Shown here piece after piece: positions 38,992-42,074 of a DNA stretch of 44,960 bases (positions are counted from its first letter, which is position 1; every line of letters starts with the position of its first letter). The stretch is from an uncultured Pseudomonadales bacterium (GTDB taxonomy: Bacteria > Pseudomonadota > Gammaproteobacteria > Pseudomonadales > UBA7434). The DNA lies in contig CAJQKT010000023.1 of the NCBI GenBank assembly GCA_905478995.1, forward strand, positions 1-44,960, in the 5' to 3' direction. The notes under the pieces are model-generated. The model saw only the letters and a program-made list of their open reading frames with translations. It did no database searches and was not told the DNA's origin. The position numbers were made by a program, and so were the translations under genes.

Positions 38992-40603
<1,612 letters not shown>

Positions 40604-40615
40604 TTTTTTTGCGGC

Positions 40616-40668
40616 GCCTAAATATGACTCACTGACTGCTATTCGTTGGTACATTTAGGCCGTTTTTT
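40616..40668 (+). terminator. Terminator/attenuator between mreB and mreC
   Basis: Perfect 8-bp stem GCCTAAAT / ATTTAGGC with a 29-base loop, followed by CGTTTTTT. It begins 12 bp after the mreB stop. The long loop suggests partial read-through, which would give more mreB than mreCD transcript. Confidence 0.65.
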
Positions 40669-40730
40669 CTCAGATAAACACCGCAGTCAGCGCGCGTAGC
40701 GTTGCTGAAGTTTACGCACAGGGTAGCCTT

Positions 40731-41564
40731 ATCAAACCTATTTTCGGTAAAGCGCCGTCAGTTGGCGCTCGCGTATTATTGATTGGGGTTTTTTCGCTCG
40801 CGATTCTCATCGCCGATTTTAAATTTTCTGCTTTTAGTGGTCTGCGCGATGCTGGCGCTACGGTTGCAGCACCTTTTTACTGGGTCAGCCAGCAGCCGCG
40901 CAATCTGTGGCATGGCATTGATACTTACTTTTCTTCGCGCGAGCATTTGTTAGAAGAAAACGAGCGACTGCATGGCGAAGCTCGCGTGCTTCGCGGCAAA
41001 CTACAAAAGCTTGTGTCTTTAACCGCGCAAAATGTGCGGCTTAAGGAGTTATTGAGCTCATCAACGGTCGTTGAAGATAGCGTGCTGGTGGCGGAAACGA
41101 TCAGCGTATCGCCTAGCCCATTCCAGCATCAAATTACTATTGATAAAGGCACGCAAGACGGCCTCTATATTGGTCAGGCCGTGATTGATGCCTACGGGCT
41201 TGTAGGGCAGGTTATAGAAGTTAATAGCGGCTCTGCTCGTGTTATTTTAATTAGTGATTCGCGCCATGCGATACCGGTGCAGGTCAATAGAAATGGTGTG
41301 CGCGCTATTGCCGAAGGAACTGGGCGTGCAGACACTTTGTTGCTGCCCAACATGGTCGAGACCACCGATATTAAAGCGGGTGATCTGCTAGTGAGTTCAG
41401 GGTTAGGGCAGCGTTTTCCCGTCGGTTATCCGGTGGGTGTCGTTGAGTCGGTTGAGTCCGATCCGGGGCAGGCTTTCTTGAATATTGTTGTTCGCCCAAG
41501 CGCCAAACTCGATCGAGGTCGCTACGTGTTGCTGGTATTTGCAGGCGAGCGTGAAGGTCGTTAG
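40731..41564 (+). CDS. mreC: Rod-shape-determining protein MreC, apparent AUC start
   Basis: Bitopic inner-membrane protein of the elongasome: short cytosolic start, one helix (ARVLLIGVFSLAILIADF), coiled coil (~60-105) and periplasmic beta domains (ITIDKGTQDGLYIGQAVID, GDLLVSSGLGQRFPVGYPVG). The frame encodes the family-like N-terminus IKPIFGKAPSVGARVLL, yet upstream of it there is no ATG, GTG, TTG or CTG before the in-frame stop at 40656. The first conventional codon is TTG 40779, inside the membrane helix. ATC 40731 has AGGG seven bases upstream and would give MKPIFGKAPS. I list 40731; a start at 40779 or an upstream sequence error are the alternatives. Its stop abuts mreD. Confidence 0.88.
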   Translation: MKPIFGKAPSVGARVLLIGVFSLAILIADFKFSAFSGLRDAGATVAAPFYWVSQQPRNLWHGIDTYFSSREHLLEENERLHGEARVLRGKLQKLVSLTAQNVRLKELLSSSTVVEDSVLVAETISVSPSPFQHQITIDKGTQDGLYIGQAVIDAYGLVGQVIEVNSGSARVILISDSRHAIPVQVNRNGVRAIAEGTGRADTLLLPNMVETTDIKAGDLLVSSGLGQRFPVGYPVGVVESVESDPGQAFLNIVVRPSAKLDRGRYVLLVFAGEREGR

Positions 41565-42074
41565 ATGCAAATGAATAGCTCACAAAATTATGTTCGGGCG
41601 GGTGACGGGCCAGATTACTTCTCGTGGTCTTTACTTCTCTTCACATCGCTCGCTGGCCTTTTGGCATCAATTTGGCCGATGCCTATTTGGGCTGTTTGGA
41701 TAAGGCCAGAATTTGCTGCAATGCTGGTTATTTACTGGGTTTTGTTCGCCCCTTTTCGCGTTGGCATGCTTTACGGTTGGTCAATGGGCTTTATGCTCGA
41801 CCTCTTGATGGGCACAGCGCTGTGCCAACACGCTCTAGGACTCACCATAGTGGCCTATGTGATTTTTCTTGTTCATCAGCGTTTAAGAATGTTTGCAATA
41901 CCCCAGCAAGCCATTGCGGTGTTTGTCATCGTGAGCCTCTACCAATTAGTTAACTATTGGATGCTTGGGTTTTCCGGCGGTGGTTATGCTAGCTTCGCAT
42001 TGATACTCCCAGCTTTAGCCAGTGCGATATGTTGGCCTTTTACGCGGCTGCTACTCGATCGCTTGCGGATGTAA
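41565..42074 (+). CDS. mreD: Rod-shape-determining protein MreD
   Basis: 169-residue polytopic inner-membrane protein with five to six helices (LLLFTSLAGLLASIWPMPIWAVW, FRVGMLYGWSMGFMLDLLMGT; quoted in part). It partners MreC in rod-shape maintenance. The conserved GMLYGWSMGFMLDLLMG motif is present. ATG 41565 follows directly on the mreC stop; a second ATG two codons later is equally possible. Confidence 0.93.
   Translation: MQMNSSQNYVRAGDGPDYFSWSLLLFTSLAGLLASIWPMPIWAVWIRPEFAAMLVIYWVLFAPFRVGMLYGWSMGFMLDLLMGTALCQHALGLTIVAYVIFLVHQRLRMFAIPQQAIAVFVIVSLYQLVNYWMLGFSGGGYASFALILPALASAICWPFTRLLLDRLRM

Follow-up and report, generated by a model that had tools for sequence, protein, structure and literature searches.

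The mreC gene in the stretch of DNA analysed here (the window, 44,960 nucleotides from an uncultured Pseudomonadales bacterium) is very likely translated from an AUC codon at position 40731, i.e. from one of the three AUH codons (AUU, AUC and AUA; ATH in the DNA) instead of from AUG, GUG or UUG. Position and conservation of this start were shown by comparison of genomes; there are no expression, proteomic or ribosome-profiling data. It is also very likely that AUH is the usual start of mreC in the order and a common one in the class as a whole, and that lineages have switched repeatedly between AUH and AUG, GUG or UUG.

All features of the locus lie on the forward strand. The upstream gene of the operon, mreB (39560-40603), was identified by profile (NF010539, TIGR00904) and starts with ATG at 39560. 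A spacer of 127 nt (40604-40730) separates it from mreC, which extends from ATC (40731-40733) to 41564 and encodes 277 amino acids plus the stop. In a profile search the mreC product scored 224.7 bits against TIGR00219 (curated cut-off 92.75) and 149.3 bits against PF04085 (28). The next gene (41565-42074, ATG start) is in the place of mreD, which lies 3' of mreC in annotated E. coli; its identity is inferred from position only. In the mreC frame a TAG stop (40656-40658) is followed by 24 codons preceding the ATC. The first conventional in-frame start is a TTG at 40779-40781, and between the stop and this codon the codon listing contained no ATG, GTG, TTG or CTG. The additional isoleucine codons in this interval, ATA 40674 and ATT 40740, are both off the conserved position. 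From 40731 the sequence reads ATC AAA CCT ATT TTC GGT AAA GCG CCG, and the protein would begin MKPIFGKAPS, as in E. coli; the residue encoded by the ATC aligns with residue 1, Met, of E. coli MreC in its full-length solved structure (7eft). An AGGG (40720-40723) ends seven bases 5' of the ATC. As a Shine-Dalgarno site it is modest to weak, with a duplex of −3.9 kcal/mol at ATC 40731 against −2.2 kcal/mol at TTG 40779.

Within the genus of the window, mreC was found in 11 of 12 genomes, one match being truncated at a contig end. The homologous codon was ATT in seven and ATC in three of the ten readable genomes, and ATG, GTG or TTG was present there in none of the ten. In several members in-frame stops are located five to eight codons 5' of the ATH, the nearest at five. 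In one locus (L004) an out-of-frame mini-ORF, ATG CAC CAT TAA, overlaps the ATT start of mreC just 3' of the Shine-Dalgarno site. G011, a separate assembly whose MreC is 99% identical, carries the same ATC as the window. According to the GTDB placement, other genera of the family are not represented among the available genomes.

An earlier reading of the locus, made from sequence alone, had placed the start at AUC 40731 instead of TTG 40779, and this held: the close genomes to which it pointed as a check read ATT or ATC throughout, and a start matching 40779 was seen in no set of homologues. Its statements on the missing ATG, GTG, TTG and CTG and on an AGGG seven bases before the ATC also held, the latter with the modest match given above. 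The base error that it listed as a point to check is opposed by the identical codon of G011 (raw reads were unavailable). It underestimated the breadth of the phenomenon, which spreads across order and class.

Among named relatives (the best 80 of 568 confirmed ones), the codon was ATT in 40, ATC in 31 and ATA in 9, that is ATH in all 80 and ATG in none. This set consists mostly of Pseudomonas and Stutzerimonas, with Zooshikella, Dasania, Marinimicrobium, Aestuariicella and others, and includes complete isolate chromosomes. The query used for fetching and aligning starts with Ile, which biases the position toward Ile, and the 80 of 80 was not relied on alone. mreB started with ATG in all 79 named loci where its start was found; starts in general are therefore normal in these loci. 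In some named relatives TAG GAG CGG GCC directly precedes the ATC.

For the wider samples the position was set by residues 2-15 only, excluding the codon in question. The order was represented by 115 evenly drawn genomes, 113 of them with mreC, of which 109 outside the genus were read; it shares at least two loci with the named set. For the class, each family contributed one genome. A match was present in 105 of 114, 103 of them outside the order, and of these 89 were read and 14 left out as short or weak. Loci were counted as anchored when residue 5 was F and residue 4 was L, I, V or M, although some anchors are weak, for example that of a GTG gene (L150); 13 order and 18 class loci, 31 of 198, remained unanchored. 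The 96 anchored order genes comprised 74 with ATH (35 ATT, 33 ATC, 6 ATA), 10 with ATG, 2 with GTG, 1 with TTG and 9 with another codon. For the 71 anchored class genes the figures were 48 ATH (19 ATT, 17 ATC, 12 ATA), 7 ATG, 1 GTG, 1 TTG and 14 other. Together, 122 of 167 anchored genes had ATH, 22 had ATG, GTG or TTG and 23 had no start-like codon there, so that ATH made up 122 of 144 start-like codons. The genes with another codon mostly seem to start elsewhere in frame; their starts were not called. A tree with 157 rows, 132 of them ATH and 25 conventional, required a minimum of 17 state changes, with gain and loss indistinguishable. A brief look at 16 loci from other classes showed a different N-terminus, again without calling starts.

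Several properties mark this codon as a start. ATH, ATG, GTG or TTG occupied codon 1 in 144 of the 167 anchored genes (86%), compared with 3-10% at any single codon from −8 to −1; at codon 4 the figure was 38%, an Ile being conserved there. The alternation of ATH with ATG, GTG and TTG at one aligned position is the pattern expected of a start codon. No in-frame ATG, GTG or TTG was present between the upstream stop and the ATH in 8 of 10 genus, 67 of 80 named, 62 of 74 order and 44 of 48 class genes, the median distance from stop to ATH being 7.5-11 codons. Codons 2-16 had a pN/pS of 0.22 (genus) and 0.16 (named relatives), whereas codons −7 to −1 gave 1.41 and 0.77. In the order and class sets, where divergence is near saturation, the values were 0.59 and 0.53 against 0.88 and 0.95 upstream. 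The ATH had a stronger Shine-Dalgarno duplex than the nearest conventional start 3' of it in 10 of 10 genus, 78 of 80 named, 71 of 74 order and 48 of 48 class genes (207 of 212 pooled), and a match of at least 4 nt was found in 104 of the 122 order and class ATH genes compared with 30% of background windows. The spacing was mostly 5-8 nt from codon 1. Some observations count against the reading. The choice among the three codons did not depart from internal Ile usage in the genus or order sets, and did so only in the named set (ATT 40, ATC 31, ATA 9 against 22.5, 55.6 and 1.9 expected) and in the class set. ATH is absent from 45 of the 167 anchored genes, the 31 unanchored loci contribute nothing, and the Shine-Dalgarno match of the window itself is weak.

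How such a start would work can at present only be inferred. The initiator tRNA most probably reads AUH as fMet with a mismatch at the third base, and hence inefficiently, and IF3 would discriminate against this pairing as it does for infC and pcnB. Weak initiation at AUH may in this way keep MreC, a membrane scaffold, scarce relative to MreB, with the good Shine-Dalgarno site found in most species putatively offsetting part of the loss. Published work lends some quantitative background: in S. aureus, reporters with an AUU or AUA start reached about 10% of the yield from AUG in poor medium, and as much as 30% in one instance when the medium was rich (PMC13009471), and raised IF3 lowered fMet initiation at AUU in a reconstituted system (PMC10158994). 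Control by IF3 and a level of MreC well below that of MreB, both put forward in the sequence-only reading, remain plausible but inferred and untested.

If AUH lowers initiation, a compensation by the ribosome-binding site might be visible. The median Shine-Dalgarno duplex in the order and class sets was −3.2 for genes with ATG, GTG or TTG (n = 22) against −7.2 for genes with ATH (n = 122), in an unpaired comparison. When paired phylogenetically, about three of six pairs were in favor of a trade-off between AUH and Shine-Dalgarno strength, none against and three equal, which is not significant. The weaker sites at ATG, GTG and TTG genes, as if output were held steady, are only suggestive, with too few pairs. 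A bolder reading is possible, namely a class-wide tie of initiation capacity to cell shape. IF3 level and initiation fidelity would set MreC, cells would tune lateral wall growth to the state of their ribosomes, and loss of the link would lead to AUG with a weaker ribosome-binding site.

The start of infC itself complicates the picture. In the class, infC was judged by eye to start with ATH in 19 or 20 of 21 resolved loci (29 read). In the genus of the window it starts with GTG in all 10 genomes with a match (loci L302-L311; the copy in the window's genome is G000:C82:12927-13430). Here infC has lost the classic AUH start while mreC keeps one. That mreC and not infC carries the AUH start in this genus counts against a simple IF3 story. 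In one member, G009, infC (L311, L312; G009:C330) is split over two frames with an internal stop, perhaps by an assembly error.

The sequence-only reading had further invoked a hairpin before mreC that would help to hold MreC low, and this part was not supported. A stem followed by TTTTTT (40611-40663) looks terminator-like by eye; its loop is longer than our scan allows, hence it was not listed, and the scan listed no terminator between mreB and mreC and no forward-strand promoter. The folding of the stem did not surpass that of shuffled sequences (z = −0.40), and the same was true of 40604-40676; the fold of 40671-40770 reached z = −1.59. The stem occurs in altered form in a near relative (L002) and is missing from the members with a short spacer; in four of the ten genus members the spacer is just 26 nt long. 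The stem is not conserved across the genus, and a meaningful hairpin before the start was not confirmed.

Of the alternative explanations, the one that survives best accepts the AUH start and denies it regulatory meaning. The codon could be a near-neutral relic, and transcription, or ribosome-binding-site strength alone, would determine how much MreC is made. This is possible. In its favor, repeated switches to ATG, GTG or TTG were tolerated (the at least 17 changes in the tree), and ATG genes have weaker Shine-Dalgarno sites, as if two routes reached the same output. Against it, AUH prevails in the 122 of 144 start-like codons although a single base change would restore AUG, and the S. aureus yields from AUU and AUA are far below that from AUG (PMC13009471); whether the level of MreC matters is untested.

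A second alternative, which we regard as very unlikely, is that translation begins at TTG 40779, or at a matching GTG or TTG in relatives, and that the codons upstream are an untranslated leader. TTG 40779 is indeed the first conventional in-frame start, and the sole annotated P. aeruginosa record at hand uses such a downstream start, GTG 267. Codons 2-16, however, are under purifying selection as protein (the values of 0.22 and 0.16 above), whereas the codons before the ATH are not, and E. coli translates the segment matching the codons before TTG 40779. The first conventional codon downstream is scattered from codon 3 to codon 98 and is thus not a conserved start, and its Shine-Dalgarno site is the weaker one in the same 207 of 212 genes. 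With a start at TTG 40779 the protein would moreover lose its basic N-terminus and part of the membrane helix. It was rejected for the coding conservation 5' of the TTG and the weaker Shine-Dalgarno site.

Initiation at another non-canonical codon further upstream, such as ATA 40674 or the codon preceding the ATC, would give an N-terminal extension and appears just as improbable. The frame of the window is open over the 24 upstream codons, and P. aeruginosa has two ATC codons in tandem. The frame is closed shortly before the ATH in many relatives, however, as the median of 7.5-11 codons to the stop indicates, and only 16 of 167 genes had ATH or NTG at codon −1. These counts, the stops and the Shine-Dalgarno spacing, mostly 5-8 nt from codon 1, led us to reject an upstream start. 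Finally, a base error that made ATC from ATG or GTG is conceivable in an assembly of 102 contigs and is all but excluded, being refuted by relatives: the independent G011 has the same ATC, eight further genus members have ATT or ATC, and the named relatives, complete isolate chromosomes included, have ATH in 80 of 80.

With the AUC start at 40731 retained, mreC can be set beside the known AUH systems. One is infC, encoding IF3, which shares with mreC a conserved AUU, AUC or AUA start across distant bacteria, together with an expected poor initiation and an expected sensing of the start by IF3. In E. coli, infC is reported to start with AUU and to be under autocontrol by IF3 (Butler, Sacerdot and others). 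infC, however, encodes a translation factor and mreC a membrane scaffold of the cell-elongation machinery, so that no self-feedback is involved, and in the genus of the window the two genes differ in their starts, GTG for infC and ATH for mreC. pcnB, encoding poly(A) polymerase in E. coli, is like mreC a gene outside translation with an AUH start, there AUU, and is reportedly limited by it (Binns and Masters 2002). The AUH start of mreC, for its part, is spread over many families. In S. aureus, ccpN (AUA) and cvfC1 (AUU) have conserved AUH starts with strong Shine-Dalgarno sites, as do most mreC genes. Ribo-Ret revealed these starts, and their yield-lowering effect was demonstrated (PMC13009471). 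These are other genes in a different phylum, and their start was shown experimentally whereas that of mreC is inferred. E. coli mreC, finally, is the same gene in the same operon order with a start at the homologous codon; its annotated start, however, is ATG (ATG AAG CCA ATT TTT), with little Shine-Dalgarno sequence before it.

AUH starts are a kind already known. Bacterial starts other than AUG, GUG and UUG are regarded as very rare, with infC and pcnB as E. coli examples (PMC9410913). Within the literature searched, mreC appears to be a new and unusually widespread carrier. We found no report of a non-AUG start of mreC in the open-access literature searched. Subscription journals were mostly outside this search, and a study of non-AUG genes in bacteria (Gvozdjak and Samanta, arXiv 2008.10758), which was not covered, could list mreC.

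Late annotated starts may explain why the AUH start went unremarked, as far as one record can tell. CP123788.1 (L313, 1-1131) is a linear P. aeruginosa 'plasmid' record of 1131 bases that covers the end of mreB plus most of mreC and nothing else, and is evidently a chromosomal mreB-mreC fragment. It reads TAG GAG CGG ATC ATC AAA CCG CTA TTC, with the conserved ATC at 219. mreC is annotated there from GTG 267, 16 codons past ATC 219 and inside the membrane helix, and the first 16 residues are missing. It is the only annotated Pseudomonas record at hand and no measure of frequency. A structural paper assigns both the cytoplasmic part and the membrane segment of P. aeruginosa MreC to residues 1-14 (PMC8137920). 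Fourteen residues do not suffice for the two, as would be expected if the numbering of MreC were truncated, although this link is inferred and no more than possible.

The AUH start of mreC can be missed by gene-finding software and, if our reading is true, the N-termini of MreC are possibly misplaced in public annotation. If true, it would also make mreC a general example, in a large part of the Gammaproteobacteria, of a core cell-shape gene outside the translation apparatus whose start codon keeps its expression low.
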